A stretch of DNA of 64,000 nucleotides from positions 1 through 64,000 of the forward strand of contig NZ_JALSLB010000042.1 of the NCBI RefSeq assembly GCF_026988555.1, given 5' to 3'. Shown piece by piece: positions 9,173 to 24,258 of this stretch (its first letter is position 1; every line of letters starts with the position of its first letter). This stretch comes from Thermococcus sp. Lineage in GTDB: Archaea; Methanobacteriota_B; Thermococci; Thermococcales; Thermococcaceae. Position numbers and translations under genes: made by a program. A model generated the notes under the pieces. It worked only from the letters and a program-made list of their open reading frames with translations. It was not told where the DNA came from and did not search any database.

Positions 9173-9891
9173 CAAAGCCACCCCAGGATTTCGTCGATGT
9201 TCTTCTTCCAATCTTTGATGGCCCAACCGTGCCCCGGAAGGCCGAAGTCAACATCGTAATCCCTGAGCCTCTCGAGGCTCTCCTGGAGTTTCCATCCGTT
9301 TCCGGTCGGCAAATCCGTCCTGCCAACGGTTCCCTTGAACACTGTATCCCCTGTGAACATGATCCGGGTTTCACCATCGTCGAGGTGGAGGCACGAGCTT
9401 CCCGCGGTGTGGCCGGGTGTGTGGATCAACTCAAGCTCCAGGGAGCCGACTTTGAGCGCATCGCCCTCCCCTAGGTGGAGATCAACCCTCTGCGGTTCGA
9501 ACCTCCTCCCGTAGGAATAGGCCAGAATCACGTAGTCGTCTCCCCTCTCCAGCGTTTTTGCCGTGGTTTCATAGGCGGCGAAGAGAACCTTGATCCCCTT
9601 CCTTTCAAGCCATTCCTTCAGCACCCCGTTTCCGCCGACGTGGTCGAAGTGCTCGTGGGTGTTGAATATCGTGACCTTCTCAACACCGTTGAGGTAACCT
9701 TCCCTCTCCCAGATTTCAGTGTAAACGTGCCAGTTAACGCCGGTGCCGGTGTCCACTACGAGGGCCTCCCTCCCGTCTCTCACCAGGTAGACGTTCGAGT
9801 CCCAGCCTATGCCTCGGAGCATGACCGTGTGTGGCGGAATCTCAACGGGCACCAGCTCCCTCGGGAACTCCTCGATGGAGCTTATCCTCAC
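9172..9891 (-). CDS. MBL-fold metallo-hydrolase
   Basis: Metallo-beta-lactamase fold hydrolase of 239 aa. The metal ligands are present: NTHEHFDHVGG, HTPGHTAGSS, FTGDTVF and GLPGHG. The layout is glyoxalase II-like, but substrate cannot be assigned from sequence. GTG 9891 is preceded by GGTGAAAGC-type context. It is the first gene of the four-gene operon and is divergent from the M20 peptidase gene; the 60-base gap holds TATA elements for both. Confidence 0.88.
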   Translation of the reverse strand: MRISSIEEFPRELVPVEIPPHTVMLRGIGWDSNVYLVRDGREALVVDTGTGVNWHVYTEIWEREGYLNGVEKVTIFNTHEHFDHVGGNGVLKEWLERKGIKVLFAAYETTAKTLERGDDYVILAYSYGRRFEPQRVDLHLGEGDALKVGSLELELIHTPGHTAGSSCLHLDDGETRIMFTGDTVFKGTVGRTDLPTGNGWKLQESLERLRDYDVDFGLPGHGWAIKDWKKNIDEILGWL

Positions 9892-9959
9892 GCTTTCACC
9901 ACGTTAAATTGGCGGCTGGGTTTATAAGGCTCACCTTCAATTGATACTAGGTGACCTCA

Positions 9960-11015
9960 ATGAAAACCGAGCGCGCGAAGGAGATACTCCTTCAGCTTCT
10001 GAAGGTACCATCCCCCTCTGGAGAGGAAGACAGAATCATGCTCCACATCATGGAGTTTCTCCACAGGCTGAACTACGACGTCCACATCGAGAGCGACGGT
10101 GAGATAATAGATCTGGTTGTGAACCCTGAGGCAGACCTCTTCTACGAGGTTCACATCGACACGATACCGATTCGCGCGGAGCCCTTCCTGAGGGGCAACA
10201 TCGTCTACGGAACCGGCGCGAGCGACATCAAGGGCGGTGCCGCTGCCATACTCCTCATGCTCGAGAACCTGCGCAGGGAGGGAAAAGACCTCAACGTCGG
10301 CATCGTCTTCGTCAGCGACGAGGAGCTGGGGGGCAGAGGCTCAGCCCTCTTCATGGAGCGCTATAAACCCAAGATGGCCGTTGTCCTTGAGCCGACCGAT
10401 TTAGAAGTCCACATCGCGCACGCCGGCAACATCGAGGCCTACTTTGAGGTGGACGGCAAAGAGGCCCACGGAGCGTGTCCCGAGAGCGGGGTTAACGCCA
10501 TCGAGGAGACCTACAAGATGCTGGAGGGGATGAAGAAGCTTGAGCCATTCAAGGCCAAGGGCAAGTACTTTGACCCACATATCGGAATCCAGGAGCTCGT
10601 CTGCGAGAACCCGGTCTATCTAATCCCCGCGCTCTGCAAGGGCCGGCTTGAGGCGAGACTTTTGCCAGACCAAGAAGTCGAGGGGGTACTCGACCTGCTC
10701 GACCCGATATTCGACGAGTACACCCTGAAGTACGAGTACACCGAGATATGGGACGGCTACGAGCTCGAACCGGACGAAGAGATAGTCCAGCTGGCGAAGA
10801 AGGCAATGGAAGCTACCGACATAGACGAGTTCGGTGGAATGAGGAGCTGGACGGACGCGATAAACTTCATGTACAACGGCACTAAGACGATAGTCTTCGG
10901 CCCCGGGAACCTCGACATCTCTCACACCAAGAATGAGCACATCGACGTGAGGGACGTTGTAACTGCCAGCGAGTTTTTGAAGGCGTTGAACGAGATTTAC
11001 GGGAGGGATGGATGA
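9960..11015 (+). CDS. M20/M28-family metallopeptidase, LysK/ArgE/DapE-like
   Basis: Di-zinc deacylase or peptidase, 351 aa. Metal and catalytic residues are in EVHIDTIP, GTGASDIKGG, SDEELGGRGS, VVLEPTDL and the C-terminal SHTKNEH. It resembles LysK, which releases lysine or ornithine from the carrier LysW, but it is not next to lysine biosynthesis genes, so I leave the substrate open. ATG 9960 follows AGGTGA by five bases; the GTG at 9951 lies inside that ribosome site. Confidence 0.85.
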   Translation: MKTERAKEILLQLLKVPSPSGEEDRIMLHIMEFLHRLNYDVHIESDGEIIDLVVNPEADLFYEVHIDTIPIRAEPFLRGNIVYGTGASDIKGGAAAILLMLENLRREGKDLNVGIVFVSDEELGGRGSALFMERYKPKMAVVLEPTDLEVHIAHAGNIEAYFEVDGKEAHGACPESGVNAIEETYKMLEGMKKLEPFKAKGKYFDPHIGIQELVCENPVYLIPALCKGRLEARLLPDQEVEGVLDLLDPIFDEYTLKYEYTEIWDGYELEPDEEIVQLAKKAMEATDIDEFGGMRSWTDAINFMYNGTKTIVFGPGNLDISHTKNEHIDVRDVVTASEFLKALNEIYGRDG

Positions 11016-15419: not shown

Positions 15420-16040
15420 TCATTCTCCCCCGTATGCCCTGAGGTAAATCTCCTTTATCTCTTCCGGCCTCGGCTCGACGGGGTTGAAAGCTATAAGCCC
15501 GTCGCGGTAGGCTTTTTCTGCCATCTCGTCAAGCCTCACCACGAAGGTCTCCCCATCAACCAGCTCGCCCAGCTTTGGAACACCGAGCATCTCGTTGAGT
15601 TCTTTAACCACTTCAATGAGGTCTTTGGCATTCTGGAAGCCAAGCTCCCTCGCTATCTCCGCGTAGCGCCTCCTCGCGTAGTCGCTTCTCTCGGCGTTGA
15701 ACTCCATCACGTAGGGCAGGAATATCGCGTTGAGGAGTCCATGCGGACCAATCCACGCTGCCTTGTGGCTCATCGCGTGGCATAGGCCGAGGCGCGCGTT
15801 GAGGAATGCTATTCCCGCCATCGTCGCCGCGTAGTGAACCCTTGCTCTTGCCTCCTCGTCGCCTTTGACCGAGAGAGGAAGCCACCGATAGACGGTCTTT
15901 ATCGCTTTAATCGCCATGGCGTCGCTGAAGGGGTTAGCAACCTTGGTTGTGTAGGCCTCTATCCCGTGGACGAGGACGTCAAGGCCGGAGTTCCTCGCGA
16001 CTTCAGGGGGTGTCGAGAGAGTTTCAAAGATTATCTAGGA
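15420..16040 (-). pseudogene. Iron-containing alcohol dehydrogenase, N-terminal half missing
   Basis: Only the C-terminal all-helical half of a group III (iron) alcohol dehydrogenase remains. The recognisable sequence begins about FETLSTPPEVARNSGLDVLV and continues through GIEAYTT, the metal-ligand region CHAMSHKAAWIGPHG and the family C terminus. A TAG lies in frame just upstream (about 16036), and no NAD-binding half (GGGS motif) exists in the window. An internal ATG at 15917 could start a 165-aa fragment but it would lack the cofactor site. The break point coincides with the left edge of the accessory island, so an insertion or deletion removed the 5' half. Confidence 0.85.
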
Positions 16041-16057
16041 GAAGGGGGAGTATTACA

Positions 16058-16162
16058 TTGAAGGAATGCCCGTTAAGGCCTACAAAAGAGCTGGACGGGA
16101 TTGAGGTTTGGCTGGACTGGAATGGTTACGCATTCACCTTCATGCTCCCAGAGGAATATTGA
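16058..16162 (+). CDS. Tiny protein (34 aa) at island edge, function unknown
   Basis: TTG 16058 follows GGGGGAG at about 16044-16050. It reads 34 aa rich in aromatic residues (WLDWNGYAFTFM) and ends 10 bases before the next gene, so the two are probably co-transcribed. The frame stays open upstream into the dehydrogenase remnant, so it could instead be the tail of a gene cut by the island junction. No family recognised. Confidence 0.35.
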   Translation: MKECPLRPTKELDGIEVWLDWNGYAFTFMLPEEY

Positions 16163-16172
16163 GGTGAGGAGA

Positions 16173-16427
16173 ATGGGGGTTTCTCTTTCTCAAATTCTTG
16201 ACGAAGTAGAATACTACCTTTATTACAAACACTACGACAAACTGAATCTCGATTTTGAGACCAAGGAAACCAAGACCCAGATTAAAGTCATAGCTTACGA
16301 CTGTAAAACCGGGGCAATCATTGAAACAATCACTTTGAAGAAAAAAGAGCTTCTCAATGACCCCCTTGGAGTTTTTGAGAAGTTTAAGACCCTCAAGGAG
16401 GAGACCATAAAGGGTCTTTCCGCTTAA
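16173..16427 (+). CDS. Small protein (84 aa) upstream of the peptide-maturation cluster
   Basis: ATG 16173 has a strong GAGGTGAGG site (16161-16169). The product is a charged alpha/beta protein (YYLYYKHYDKLNLDF near the N terminus, then a Lys/Glu-rich C terminus) with no recognised family. It lies about 160 bases upstream of the radical SAM gene and reads the same way. It could be an accessory or regulatory protein of that cluster, or an unrelated island gene. Confidence 0.6.
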   Translation: MGVSLSQILDEVEYYLYYKHYDKLNLDFETKETKTQIKVIAYDCKTGAIIETITLKKKELLNDPLGVFEKFKTLKEETIKGLSA

Positions 16428-16539
16428 GTTTTGAAACTTTTGTTAGGACTTTTCTTCAACTTTCTAAAAAATCAACCGATTTTAGGGGAGAATAAGAGTA
16501 TAAAAAGCATGTGGAAGTAGCAAAAAGTTTTAAAACTTT
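16426..16539. promoter_or_regulatory. Promoter region with two related palindromes before the radical SAM gene
   Basis: A perfect 16-bp palindrome AAAGTTTTAAAACTTT lies at 16524-16539, just after a TATA-like GTATAAAAAG (16499-16508). A similar but imperfect copy, AAGTTTTGAAACTTT, sits at 16426-16440, over the stop of the 84-aa gene. Placement of the perfect copy between TATA box and start codon is what an operator of an autoregulated cluster would look like. No regulator gene is identified within the cluster. Confidence 0.55.
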
Positions 16540-16584
16540 GACTTACATAATATACTCCCGGACAACCCCAAGGAGCGGGTTCTA

Positions 16585-18086
16585 ATGAGTGTGGTTCAAT
16601 TAAAGGCATCACGACCATAAAATCCAAAATTGCCAATATCCCCAAGTTCTTCGTTCTCCACGAAGGTTCGGGATACATCATCGAAGTTGAACCCGAAACC
16701 TACTCCGGCCTTCAGAAAATAAGCCAAGGAAAGAAGGACAAACTGACCCCAGAGGAAAGAGCGAAGCTCAAAGAACTTCAGGATTACTTAAATCAACTCC
16801 CACCCCTGAAACTCGAATACAACGAGGGCTATGGCTTCCTCCTTGGAGGAAGCATCAACGTCTCTCAGGCCTGTAACTTCTCCTGCATTTACTGTTACGC
16901 CAACAAAGGCACTTACACCCTCGAAAAGCCCAAACTCATGGACAGGGAGACTATGAGGAAAGCCATTGACTTCCTCTTCGACAAAGCCCCTTATGGTGTT
17001 AGTATCGTCTTCTTCGGGGGAGAACCACTCCTCAACTTCCCAGTCATCAAAGAGGGCGTCCTATACGCCGAACAGAAAGCCAAGGAGAGTAGAAAGCCCG
17101 TATTCTTCAGCGTTACCACAAACGGATACCTCCTCACTCCGGAGGTCGTGGACTTCCTTCTGAGCCATCCGTTTAATATCATCGTCAGCGTGGACGGGCC
17201 GAGGGAGATTCACGACCACAATAGGCCTTTTGTGGACGGTTCACCGACATATAACGTTGTAGCAAATAATCTCAAATACCTCATTAGAGAAGCCAAAAAG
17301 AGAGGAAAACTTGAGAAGATTATCCTAAGGGCTACTGTCCTCCCAGAGCAATTGAACAGGGTTCATGAGATTTATCATCACCTTAAAACCGAGTTTGGAG
17401 TTCTCAACGCCAACGTTGAGATGGCTACTCTTCCAACTAATGTCATCACTAAGGAACACATGGACACCTATCTTGAACAGCTCAGAAAAATTGCCGTTGA
17501 GGAGCTGGATACATTTAAAGAGTTACAAACAATTGTGCATACCGGATTAAGACAAACAATACTCGACATATACCAAGGGAAAGTCAGAAAATACCATTGC
17601 GGTGCAGGACGAAGAGGAGTTGCCATTGATGTAGATGGCAACATCTATCCATGCCATAGGTTCGTTAGCATGGAGAACTTCAAGCTCAGCCACGTGGATA
17701 ACTTTGAGTGGGAGCATCTGAAACGCTTTGAGCCTCAAAAATACAATTTCTCCAATCATGAACCCTGTAAGAGTTGCTGGCTAAGGTTTTACTGCCACAA
17801 CTTCTGCTTCTATGAAAACACCATCTACACCGAAAAGAGCTTCATTCCACCGGCATTGAAGTGTTATTATGCCAAAGAGTCCTTCAAAATAAGTCTTTGG
17901 CTTTACGCCCGTCTCTGGGACGAGTATGGAGACGAGTTCGAGAGATTTTTAGAGAATTCTACCCCAACCCCCAGTTTAGACCCAGAGAACACCCCTGAGA
18001 TTAAATCAGAAACTATTACGACCACAACTCTACACGGAGGTGGTGCAACCGGAGGGTTGCCCAAAACGGAGGAGGTAGAAATATGA
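16585..18086 (+). CDS. SPASM-type radical SAM peptide maturase (frame broken near start)
   Basis: Predicted to modify the two small cysteine peptides encoded directly downstream. The cluster-binding CNFSCIYC motif has Cys codons at 16872, 16884 and 16893; FFGGEPLLN follows. The C-terminal SPASM region has YHCGAG, DGNIYPCHRF, PCKSC, YCHNFC and a last Cys, enough for two auxiliary Fe-S clusters. The YPCHRF signature is typical of thioether-forming maturases such as the SCIFF enzyme. About 80 residues before the core may be a peptide-recognition domain (FFVLHEGSGYIIEVE). No ATG, GTG or TTG exists in frame before 16938, beyond the cluster motif. ATG 16585, with GGAG nine bases upstream, joins the frame if one A is restored in the AAA at 16602-16604. 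Restored length about 500 aa. Confidence 0.88.
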
Positions 18087-18178
18087 TAGGACAAGACCAA
18101 AGGAAAAAGGACGACATGCTTTGTGCATCCATTGGAGACCAGCTTTGTGAGATAAACATCGTAAAGGATGTTATTTGA
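18083..18178 (+). CDS. Putative RiPP precursor peptide 1 (31 aa)
   Basis: Starts within the stop of the radical SAM gene (ATGA overlap at 18083-18086) after GGAGGAGG, so translation is coupled to the enzyme. The peptide has a short basic leader and a core DDMLCASIGDQLCE with two Cys seven residues apart, then a hydrophobic tail. Its core closely matches the next peptide, which is the main reason to believe both are real genes. Likely fate: radical thioether or other crosslinking by the upstream enzyme, leader removal by an unidentified protease, and export. Function of the product is unknown. Confidence 0.75.
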   Translation: MIGQDQRKKDDMLCASIGDQLCEINIVKDVI

Positions 18179-18205
18179 TTAAAAAAAGAGAAAGGAGGTG
18201 ATAAG

Positions 18206-18310
18206 ATGAGGGCTATGGTGAAGACCAAGCCGAGGATGGATGACGATATGCTTTGTTCGGCCATCGGCGACGGATGGTGCGAAGTGGACGAGAGAGAGGA
18301 AATCTACTAA
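18206..18310 (+). CDS. Putative RiPP precursor peptide 2 (34 aa)
   Basis: ATG 18206 follows an excellent ribosome site GGAGGTGAT (18194-18202). The core reads DDDMLCSAIGDGWCE, the same pattern as peptide 1 (DDMLC, two small residues, IGD, two variable residues, CE), with a different basic leader and an acidic tail. The variable pair before the second Cys (GW against QL) and the divergent tails suggest two distinct products processed by one enzyme. The gene lies 27 bases after peptide 1 and ends before a T-rich tract (about 18352-18364) that may terminate the transcript. Confidence 0.75.
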   Translation: MRAMVKTKPRMDDDMLCSAIGDGWCEVDEREEIY

Positions 18311-18364
18311 ACATCCACCATACACCCCCAATTAGCGGGTTCAAACCTCTTTTTCTCTTTATTT

Positions 18365-18396
18365 TGATGTGCAAAAACAAAAAGCTTTTTACATCA
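18365..18396. promoter_or_regulatory. Inverted repeat in the promoter of the island transporter
   Basis: TGATGT (18365-18370) and ACATCA (18391-18396) form an interrupted inverted repeat whose inner parts are also complementary (AAAAA against TTTTT). It lies in the 131-base gap between precursor peptide 2 and the transporter, upstream of a probable TATA element (AAATAAAACC, about 18398). It could be an operator or the stem of a terminator for the peptide transcript. Confidence 0.4.
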
Positions 18397-18441
18397 GAAA
18401 TAAAACCATAAACTGCTAAAACCATGTCAGGGGGGCTTTAA

Positions 18442-19653
18442 ATGGATTTGATTCGGAAGTATAAGCTCTTTTATGCTTTAATAAACATGGGCTTCGTTGG
18501 AAACATTCTCATCATCTACTACTTAACCAGGGGATTCAACTACGCCCAAATAGGAACCGCAACAGCAGTAATGACCGCCGGATACGTCCTCTTCGAAGTC
18601 CCAACCGGAGTAGTAGCAGATAAAATCAGCCGAAAACTAAGCGTCCTCATCGGACTAATCATCCACACCCTCGGCCTCCCCGTCCTAATCCTCCTCAACA
18701 GCTACCCCCTCCTCATCCTCTACTCAATCCTAAACGCCCTCGGCGGAACATTCGCCAGCGGAAGCCTCCAAGCATGGCTATACTACAACCTCAAACACCT
18801 CGGCAGAGAAAAAGAATACAGACAACTCATGAAAGACATCAAAACCCTCACAATCCCCCTCTCAGCCACAACCCTCATAATCGGCGGATTCTTAGCCCAA
18901 TACTACGGGTTCACACTCCCGCTAATCCTAACCCTCCTTGCAGAGATAACCGCTATTGTAGTGGCTTACACGATTCCGGAGTATGAATTCAAAAAGCCCG
19001 AACGCTCCTACCTCAAACACACTCTTGAGGCCTCCAGAAAACTCCTCCGGCCAGAACTCCTCTGGCTCATAATCCTCTCAATCATCGTTACGATGCAAGT
19101 AAGCCAGTTCAGGAAATTCTTTGAACCCTACCTCGGAGACATCCTCGCCAAGAACCTAAAGACAACCCTAATCGGCACACTCGGAATCCTCGGAGTGGTC
19201 GAAGCCATCGTCAAAGTCATCCCAAGGCTCATTGGAATACACCTGAGAGACAAATGGAGCGTTAAGGCTTATTCCCTCGCCCCCCTCGTTATTCCACTCT
19301 TAACGGCCCTCTCTGTAGTTTACCAGAACCCGCTATGGATTATCACCTTGGGGATTGTGGTTACGGTAGTCAATACTGCCTTCGGCTTCAACGTCTCGAT
19401 TGAATTGCAACACAGGATTCCGAGAGAGGAGAGGGCTACCATAAGGTCTCTGGACATGATGGTTTCAGCGTTGGTCATGAGTGCCTTTTACTTCATCTAC
19501 GGTTTCGTCGTGGACTGGCTGGGACTGGCTGAGGCGAGATTACTCTTCGCCCTAATCCTCCTCGGTGCTGGAGTCTCATTGAAGGCCGGAGAACTCTTAG
19601 GCCCACTTAAAGACGTTCTAAAACTCAAACACATGGAAGCTATGATCAAATAA
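18442..19653 (+). CDS. MFS transporter, putative peptide exporter
   Basis: Integral membrane protein of 403 aa with about 12 predicted helices; the MFS loop motif is GVVADKISRKLS after the second helix. Placement directly after two precursor peptides suggests export of, or immunity to, the modified peptide, which is inference from context. ATG 18442 follows AGGGGGGC. The coding strand from about 18540 to 18950 is strikingly rich in A and C and poor in G and T compared with both neighbours, including its own 3' half, which may mark a different origin or recombination within the gene. Confidence 0.85.
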   Translation: MDLIRKYKLFYALINMGFVGNILIIYYLTRGFNYAQIGTATAVMTAGYVLFEVPTGVVADKISRKLSVLIGLIIHTLGLPVLILLNSYPLLILYSILNALGGTFASGSLQAWLYYNLKHLGREKEYRQLMKDIKTLTIPLSATTLIIGGFLAQYYGFTLPLILTLLAEITAIVVAYTIPEYEFKKPERSYLKHTLEASRKLLRPELLWLIILSIIVTMQVSQFRKFFEPYLGDILAKNLKTTLIGTLGILGVVEAIVKVIPRLIGIHLRDKWSVKAYSLAPLVIPLLTALSVVYQNPLWIITLGIVVTVVNTAFGFNVSIELQHRIPREERATIRSLDMMVSALVMSAFYFIYGFVVDWLGLAEARLLFALILLGAGVSLKAGELLGPLKDVLKLKHMEAMIK

Positions 19654-19836
19654 ACTTTGATTGGGCTTTGTTTTTGTCTAATTAATCTTGTATCTTACTT
19701 TGGGTGATATCCGAGGAATCTGTGCATTTTCCAGATAATCCATCCAGCTAAAAGCATAAGGTACTTAATTTCCAAAACCTTTATATTCAAAAATTCTCAT
19801 TTTTATCCAGTTATATTGTGATTATGGTGAGAAAAT

Positions 19837-20607
19837 ATGAATACCACGGAGGTCTTAAGACGGCTTTCCGAACTGGGTGATGTATTCACCAAGAAGGAGG
19901 CCCAAGAGAAACTTGGCATAACTACGAGGCAGTTAAGCTACTATCTTGAAGCGCTCCTCAGAGAAGGATTTCTTCGGAGAATTGCCAAGGGCATCTACAC
20001 TTTCTCCTTAGAACCGGGGAGAGCATCTTCCCCCCATGAATTTGTTCTAGCTCAGATTTTGGTACCTAACGGGGCAGTTGCGTACTGGTCCGCCCTCAAC
20101 TATTACGGGTTAACTGAGCAGATTCCAAGAACAGTTTTCATTCAAACTCCCGTAAAGAGAGGCTATCAAAAGCTCATAGTACTCGACGGTAAGAGGTTTA
20201 AGGTAGTCGTAGTCAGCCCTGAGAAGTTTTTTGGAATAGGCACTATACGTCTTGGACGCAGGGAGATTCGAATAACAGATCCTGAAAAGACGATAGTGGA
20301 CTGCCTAGACAAGCCTAAGTACTGCGGGGGAATAATCGAGGTCGTTAAGGCTCTCAAGAACGCGAGGCTGGATTATGAAAAGTTGCTGGAATATGCTGAA
20401 CGGATGAAGAGCAAAGCCATCCTGAAGCGTTTGGGATTTTTAAGTGAGAGGCTGGAGCTTGGGATTGAGAAGGAAATCAGACTTTCTGAAAATGACAAAA
20501 AGAGCTTTGCACTTCTCGACCCTTCAATGCCTCAGGGAGGTCGCTTTAACTATCGGTGGGGCCTGAGAATCAACGTTCCGGAGGATTATTGGGAGGAGGT
20601 AGAATGA
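19837..20607 (+). CDS. AbiEi-type antitoxin (type IV toxin-antitoxin)
   Basis: 256 aa. The N-terminal winged helix (GVTKKEA-like stretch, residues 15-60) is followed by the AbiEi family C domain (VAYWSALNYYGLTEQIP, RKIRITDPEKTIVDCLD-like). In AbiE systems this protein represses its own promoter and counters the toxin without binding it. ATG 19837 has GGTGA six bases upstream and a TATA-like CTTTATATTC near 19780. The stop overlaps the toxin start by four bases (ATGA), the standard order antitoxin then toxin. Confidence 0.85.
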   Translation: MNTTEVLRRLSELGDVFTKKEAQEKLGITTRQLSYYLEALLREGFLRRIAKGIYTFSLEPGRASSPHEFVLAQILVPNGAVAYWSALNYYGLTEQIPRTVFIQTPVKRGYQKLIVLDGKRFKVVVVSPEKFFGIGTIRLGRREIRITDPEKTIVDCLDKPKYCGGIIEVVKALKNARLDYEKLLEYAERMKSKAILKRLGFLSERLELGIEKEIRLSENDKKSFALLDPSMPQGGRFNYRWGLRINVPEDYWEEVE

Positions 20608-21443
20608 TTGAGGAGGAGATAAAGGCCCTGAGTTCTGAGCTTGGAGTCCCGGTTTCTACCGTTGAAAAGGACTACGCCATAAGCTGGATGCTCTATGGAC
20701 TCTGGAAGTCAAAGTTTTGGAGAGTACTAGCATTCAAAGGAGGGACCTGCCTGAAAAAGGCATACTTTGCAGACTACAGATTTTCTGAGGATCTTGACTA
20801 CACCTTGCTTTTAGAGGAGCCGGATACAGAGGAGGTTCAAACTAAAATAGCCGACGCCGTTGAAGTGGCCGATGAGGGGCCCGTTCAGTTCCTTGAGTTT
20901 GAACTAAGGCCAAGATACGGGGTAAAGCTTTTTCCAGGAGAGCTTCTTGGGTTTGAAGTCCGGATTCCGTTTAGACTGCTCACTAGAACCGGGAATCCAC
21001 CGAAGATTAAAATGGACATAACTCTAGAAAAGTACGAGAAAATACTGCTTCCACCCCAGGAAAGGCCGATCCTGCATGGGTATTCCGACAGCCCAAGGTT
21101 TTCCGTGGTAAGCGTTAAGACTTATAGTTTGGAGGAAATACTGGCTGAGAAAATAAGGTCTCTGTTCCAGAGGACGAGGCCAAGGGATTTGTATGATATA
21201 TGGTTTCTGAAAAGCGTTGCTGATTTAGAAAGTGTAGCTCAGATACTCAGTCCAAAGTTTGAGGCTAAGAGTGTTGAGCCAGATGTGAATGCGCTTCAAG
21301 GCAGAAAACCCTACTATGAAAGGGCCTGGCAGAGCAGTCTGGGCCACCAGTTGAGAGAACTTCCAGAATTTAGTACGGTGTGGAACGATGTCCTGGAATT
21401 AGTGAAGGATGTTCTAAGTAAGCTGGACAATTTCAAGGACTAG
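20604..21443 (+). CDS. AbiEii-type nucleotidyltransferase toxin (DUF1814)
   Basis: 279 aa. Nucleotidyltransferase signatures are FKGGTCLKKAYF, SEDLDYTL (catalytic Asp pair) and the C-terminal EEILAEKIRSLFQR and RPRDLYDIWFL, which define the DUF1814/AbiEii family. Such toxins add nucleotides to target RNAs; in bacteria AbiE confers phage resistance or stabilises mobile DNA. I start at ATG 20604, overlapping the antitoxin stop, rather than further upstream. Together with the recombinase, it fits an addiction module of the island. Confidence 0.88.
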   Translation: MIEEEIKALSSELGVPVSTVEKDYAISWMLYGLWKSKFWRVLAFKGGTCLKKAYFADYRFSEDLDYTLLLEEPDTEEVQTKIADAVEVADEGPVQFLEFELRPRYGVKLFPGELLGFEVRIPFRLLTRTGNPPKIKMDITLEKYEKILLPPQERPILHGYSDSPRFSVVSVKTYSLEEILAEKIRSLFQRTRPRDLYDIWFLKSVADLESVAQILSPKFEAKSVEPDVNALQGRKPYYERAWQSSLGHQLRELPEFSTVWNDVLELVKDVLSKLDNFKD

Positions 21444-24118: not shown

Positions 24119-24258
24119 CGCATACTTTAACCTATGATATTAGTTCTTTAGAAATACTTATATACTATAAGAGCATAATTAACGCATACTTTAAAAATAT
24201 ATTGAGAAATTAAAGCATGCAATTAGTTTTGTATTTGTATACAAAACGCATGCAAAAG
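24119..24258. repeat. Direct repeats at 64-base spacing plus an inverted repeat, upstream of the recombinase
   Basis: CGCATACTTTAA occurs at 24119-24130 and again at 24183-24194; a third related copy, CGCATGCAAAAG, is at 24247-24258, so all three are exactly 64 bases apart. The third overlaps a nested inverted repeat: GCATGC (24215-24220) and GCATGC (24248-24253) flank TTTTGTAT / ATACAAAA (24227-24246). CTTATA-TAC-TATAAG is at 24157-24171. This is the right edge of the island and upstream of the recombinase, where recombination or regulatory sites are expected. Confidence 0.55.

Follow-up and report, generated by a model that had tools for sequence, protein, structure and literature searches.

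A putative family of radical-SAM RiPP precursors encoded between a SPASM enzyme and an MFS transporter in Thermococcaceae

The window, by which we mean the whole 64,000-nucleotide stretch of Thermococcus sp. DNA that was analyzed, encodes two short peptides, A and B, between a radical-SAM/SPASM enzyme and an MFS transporter (Table 1). Because a profile built without the window finds both B (E = 3e-10) and A (E = 8e-4), we take them, from sequence comparison, to be genuine genes of one family. It appears to be an unannotated conserved family of radical-SAM RiPP precursors, probably ranthipeptide-like. The precursor family is new; its kind, the radical-SAM RiPP, is already known. Its range is sporadic and comprises the genus of the window, one further genus of the same family, and one Thermococcus plasmid. 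No report of the thermococcal peptides was found in the open-access papers searched, among the matches listed. A 2019 mBio study is said to have surveyed archaeal antimicrobial peptides. One publication, in the part cited, predicts that radical-SAM RiPPs are common across the archaea, with products that are hardly known (PMC12144867).

Table 1. Features of the peptide locus and its left flank (positions in the window)
Feature	Position	Strand	Remarks
Iron-dependent alcohol dehydrogenase, 3' part only	15420 to about 16006	-	Broken gene
Palindrome AAAGTTTTAAAACTTT, 16 bp, perfect; precedes the enzyme gene	16524..16539	.	Possible promoter/operator
Enzyme start: ATG and first codons, frame one base off the main frame	16585..16619	+	Intact copies on the T. 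nautili plasmid and elsewhere among relatives
Radical-SAM/SPASM peptide maturase (putative), main frame, CteB-like N-terminal domain	16620..18086	+	PF04055, PF13186
Precursor peptide A (putative), 31 aa, MIGQDQRKKDDMLCASIGDQLCEINIVKDVI	18083..18178	+	Family core, shortened leader
Precursor peptide B (putative), 34 aa, MRAMVKTKPRMDDDMLCSAIGDGWCEVDEREEIY	18206..18310	+	Full family leader and core
MFS transporter, presumed exporter, perhaps self-protection	18442..19653	+	PF07690, E = 2.2e-19; downstream at all 8 loci

Both ORFs announced in a preliminary description of this DNA are present, and their cores align without gaps (C-x4-D-x2-C-E) around the CX7C pair of cysteines that it had pointed out. 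Each ORF is preceded by a sequence resembling a ribosome-binding site, AGGAGGT (18070-18076 for A, 18193-18199 for B), and the ORF of peptide A begins before the radical-SAM gene has ended, overlapping its stop codon. Neither peptide matches a family in Pfam or NCBIfam. The leaders had been described as differing. This holds for A, whose degraded leader is 9 bases shorter than the matching stretch of a Thermococcus nautili plasmid, and fails for B, which has the family leader MRA[LM]VK...

The window-free HMM was built from 8 peptides of other genomes and run on the window and the plasmid stretch, translated in six frames (3075 segments). It ranked the T. nautili peptide first (E = 1.4e-10), followed by B (3.1e-10) and A (7.9e-4), with the next match at E = 0.67. 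A second profile, A1, made from ten family peptides and run against 115 genomes of the class, gave 11 strong matches (E <= 5e-12), all at enzyme-MFS loci including that of the window, with the next at E = 0.04; these matches are partly the peptides that built A1, and the window-free HMM is the stricter test. Throughout the 115 genomes, all homologues of the peptides are found in one setting, with this radical-SAM/SPASM enzyme on one side and this MFS transporter on the other. A phylum-level search again covered 115 genomes and returned the same places. The scan of genome contigs with the enzyme yielded 2 distant loci only, viral contigs gave no matches, and phage records held distant enzymes only (<60% identity).

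As a query, the enzyme found 20 of the 115 genomes at E <= 1e-30, and its close form (at least 52% identity) is present in seven: that of the window (G000), G089, G061, G060, G029, G026, and G047. Six of the seven have the peptide, and the seventh (G047) has a deletion there. Stretches of 18-19 kb were compared for the six genomes other than the window's own. The MFS gene lies downstream in all six (60.5-73% identical), and five have peptides between it and the enzyme, with four copies in G089, two in G029, and one each in G060, G061, and G026. The preliminary description had read A and B as duplicated RiPP precursors and had named a lack of conservation of either frame, in relatives with the same enzyme, as the finding that would refute this. 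Homologues do adjoin the enzyme in those relatives, and the reading stands. Conserved short genes beside a modifying enzyme, a leader, and a modifiable core, the features by which we recognize a RiPP precursor family, are all found here. The third and fourth copies of G089 (locus L031, about 9868-10090) have kept leader, core, and ribosome-binding site and have ATA or ACA in place of ATG; having no standard start codon, they count against the explanation of the family as working precursors.

A further copy of the gene set is on the circular plasmid THER333_p of Thermococcus nautili 33-3 (NZ_OX281346.1; 103,230 bp). Its enzyme is 85.7% identical, and nothing is annotated between the enzyme and the MFS gene. 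That interval codes for MRAMVKTRPKMEDDMLCSRIGDQWCEASDKAEII, which is the partner of B; in place of A it has a remnant of 12 codons whose leader resembles that of the family. Because the plasmid copy of A has lost its core and the window copy part of its leader, A appears to be unstable, in contrast to the conserved copy B. A two-component product, as had been proposed for A and B, is not supported and was rejected, given a copy number of 1 to 4 and the core lost from the plasmid copy of A. DNA similarity between the window and THER333_p extends from window position 16007 to 19669, and its left edge is the point at which the iron-dependent alcohol dehydrogenase gene is broken; in seven of eight other genomes compared this frame is open over 385-414 aa, and in the eighth over 224 aa. 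Since the edge of similarity and the break coincide, the sequence suggests that the gene set came into the window's genome from a plasmid-like element.

The palindrome AAAGTTTTAAAACTTT occurs once in the window when up to one mismatch is allowed and in none of 100 shuffles. It is also found upstream of the enzyme on the T. nautili plasmid (L047, 10697-10712) and in G089 (L031, 8097-8112), and it is possibly a local operator or promoter element. Another motif, TATATACTATAAGAGCATAATTAA, lies with small changes upstream of several T. nautili plasmid genes (L047 3895, 4549, 5116, 6811, and 9929) and once in the window (24158-24183); it may be a plasmid-specific promoter element. Downstream of the transporter, Pfam matches mark an AbiEi/AbiEii type IV toxin-antitoxin pair (19837-21443), which has 65% DNA identity to a pair on the 54-kb plasmid of T. 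barophilus MP. A functional link between this pair and the peptide set was considered and rejected: the pair resembles the T. barophilus plasmid and lies outside the stretch shared with T. nautili.

Residue conservation was scored in 11 distinct peptides: A and B of the window, the B counterpart of T. nautili, four of G089, one of G060, two of G029, and one of G026 (the peptide of G061 is the same as that of G060 at the scored places and was not counted apart). The first Cys and an Asp five residues on (CX4D) are invariant, so that a Cys with an acid a few residues downstream, the feature looked for in a ranthipeptide, is present in all 11. The preliminary description had named this Asp and the core Ile as candidate acceptors for Cys crosslinks. 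The conservation of Asp supports the former; the latter was rejected, as position +3 is variable (Ile in 8, Met in 2, Pro in 1). The second Cys is also invariant, at +8 in ten peptides and at +7 in the first copy of G089, and is directly followed by Glu in 10 of 11; the position preceding it is W, L, Y, or M. A further acidic residue stands 4 to 7 places past the second Cys in every peptide, at exactly +5 in six. Between B and its T. nautili counterpart dN/dS is low: over the 27 leader and core codons dS is 0.92 and dN 0.14 (Fisher p = 0.0012, from rounded counts). Over all 34 codons, the changes at codon positions 1, 2, and 3 number 4, 9, and 13, which indicates that the tail is less conserved. 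Synonymous sites are saturated in many of the other peptide pairs.

The enzyme is CteB/PapB/QhpD-like by sequence and falls below the cut-off of every curated maturase family in NCBIfam. Its best scores are 251.4 bits against the nif11 model TIGR04064 (cut-off 518.7), 246.5 against PapB NF047865 (340), 232.8 against the quinohemoprotein maturase (453), and 200.2 against SCIFF TIGR03974 (425). It is therefore not placed in the PapB family, nor does the locus qualify as a Nif11 system, which also calls for a Nif11-type leader (neither peptide has a Pfam or NCBIfam match), or as a SCIFF system, which calls for a six-Cys precursor, the core here having two Cys. This shortfall counts against the explanation proposed below. 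The nearest solved structure is 5wgg, which we take to be CteB with an RRE as its N-terminal domain (E = 3e-47 with the window sequence, 4.2e-70 with a profile of eight enzymes), and the match of the eight-enzyme profile extends over that domain. All eight aligned enzymes share the CX3CX2C cluster motif and seven C-terminal Cys without exception (L032, which has an internal stop, was left out, and the sequence of L034 was cut off ahead of its stop). The N-terminal profile matches that of paralogues with 40% identity at 94% probability over 25 columns. A single-sequence AlphaFold model of the N terminus shows strand-strand-helix-helix at moderate to low confidence, a fold that is compatible with an RRE; it had no match in the PDB. 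The model of the full-length enzyme (pLDDT 44.7) was too poor for use.

In our view, the probable explanation for the whole family is that these are paralogous RiPP precursors that receive Cys-to-carboxylate thioethers from the adjacent enzyme and are exported by the MFS protein. The gene family, its synteny, the enzyme family, and the invariant residues are established by comparison of sequences; bridge chemistry and position, leader binding, cleavage, export, and activity are what we infer from them. The precursor would consist of a short N-terminal leader (consensus MRALVKxxPK), the core C-x-[SA]-I-G-D-x-x-C-E, and a variable acidic tail. The leader may be bound by the CteB-like N-terminal domain of the enzyme, which would then form a thioether bridge from the first Cys to the invariant Asp. 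We favor Cys-Asp bridging because the invariant CX4D fits the spacings accepted by PapB, which, in the cited part of the source, forms Cys-Asp and Cys-Glu thioethers and accepts Cys-Xn-Asp with n = 0-6 (PMC9413430). The second Cys might be bridged to a later Glu or Asp, either directly adjacent or 4-7 residues further along; the variable place of the latter acid counts against such bridging. The leader would be removed by a protease encoded elsewhere; that no protease gene was identified in the gene set counts against the explanation. The MFS protein would export the product, probably an antagonistic or signaling peptide.

For the window copy alone, it is quite possible that the locus is a decaying remnant, with genuine precursors and nothing made in the window's genome; this is compatible with the thioether explanation for the family as a whole. 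In its main frame, the enzyme gene lacks an ATG, GTG, or TTG before 16938, and the cluster Cys are encoded upstream of that position. The ATG at 16585 opens the N terminus of the family, but near codon 8 its frame is one base off the main one, in a region that the plasmid and other copies read through. Because of this offset and the shortened leader of A, the window copy may not work, a point against the thioether explanation. Related loci are broken too: the enzyme of G061 has an internal stop, and G047, compared with G060, has a deletion of some 665 bp that took away the peptide together with the latter part of the enzyme. On the other hand, B, the MFS gene, and the rest of the enzyme frame are open, and the offset may be an error of the 68-contig draft rather than a real lesion; the window copy may thus be decaying or carry an assembly error. 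Among eight loci (window, plasmid, G089, G060, G061, G047, G029, and G026), all have an open MFS frame, and five an enzyme frame that runs open from a standard start. A transporter kept after loss of the enzyme would be expected if it were protective, but three losses are too few for proof, and G060, G061, and G047 are close relatives, with 97-99% DNA identity at the locus.

A sactipeptide-type product, with the Cys sulfurs linked to alpha-carbons of core residues and not to Asp or Glu side-chain carbons, seems improbable. The enzyme superfamily is the same, sactipeptide maturases such as RumMC are matched more weakly in NCBIfam (123.9 bits; cut-off 720), and variable non-acid core residues could act as acceptors; however, the PapB, QhpD-type, and SCIFF models match better than RumMC, and the Asp at +5 is strictly conserved. 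Next, and improbable as well, comes some other radical-SAM change (a carbon-carbon or ether crosslink, or epimerization), the Cys pair forming a disulfide or binding metal. In its favor are the W, L, Y, or M before the second Cys and weak hits among maturases of the SPASM group, including those that form cyclophanes (78.7 bits; cut-off 445), but these hits are far weaker than the PapB/QhpD-like matches, and the invariant residues are Cys and Asp, not an aromatic one. Finally, that ORFs so short, and unannotated in the plasmid record, are chance reading frames is refuted by the homologues and has practically no chance given the window-free E-values, the synteny in two genera, and the low dN/dS.

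The thioether explanation could be carried further, to a plasmid-transferred ranthipeptide-type antagonism among hyperthermophilic archaea that we regard as somewhat unlikely. Heat-stable peptides of about 20 residues with thioether bridges would inhibit other Thermococcales, the MFS protein would both export and protect, and strains in which enzyme or peptide has been lost and the transporter kept (G047, G061, and perhaps the window) would be resistant nonproducers. If this is true, the product would count as an archaeocin, one whose maker is a radical-SAM enzyme. More generally, sulfur-bridged peptides of hyperthermophiles, if real, would show how staples hold at high temperature and might yield thermostable stapling enzymes. 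With a precursor this short and a single invariant CX4D in it, the chemistry lends itself to easy testing, for which T. nautili 33-3 offers an intact copy on its plasmid.

Further radical-SAM peptide systems were also seen. The window's genome has a second one (L002, contig G000:C16), with an FKKLN-type leader and Cys-rich peptides of CXXD repeats at 2897 and 3022, neither of which matched an NCBIfam precursor family at its cut-off. Systems of the same FKKLN type are conserved in several relatives (L012-L019). A third type of peptide, MEFEVVNPGD..., 48-50 aa long, lies directly downstream of another related enzyme at L020, L025, L026, and L027.

Among known systems, PapA/PapB, a freyrasin-type ranthipeptide system, has a related radical-SAM/SPASM enzyme and the same order of Cys followed by Asp or Glu, whereas the thermococcal enzyme stays below the PapB cut-off. 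As far as the cited part of the source goes, PapA has six CX3D/E motifs and a conserved Asn in its leader (PMC9413430); by comparison, the thermococcal peptide has one invariant CX4D and a second Cys, and the Asn is absent from its leader. CteB is the nearest solved enzyme, its N-terminal domain included. CteA/CteB and the SCIFF peptides are represented by thermocellin, and a SCIFF precursor carries six Cys within 45 residues, unlike the thermococcal core with two and an enzyme that reaches less than half of the SCIFF cut-off. QhpD/PeaB, the maturase of quinohemoprotein amine dehydrogenase, is known to form Cys-Asp/Glu thioethers and is similar to the window enzyme (about 32% identity for a plasmid-borne PeaB), but its substrate is an enzyme subunit and not a 30-residue peptide beside an exporter. 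The peptides with FKKLN-type leaders (L002, L012-L019) come from the same archaeal class and lie, like A and B, as small peptides directly downstream of an enzyme, in their case one about 40% identical; they differ in the leader and in being Cys-rich, with many CXXD/CX3D repeats. Because relatives at about 40% identity adjoin peptides with such repeats, Cys-to-Asp chemistry is plausible for this branch of enzymes.
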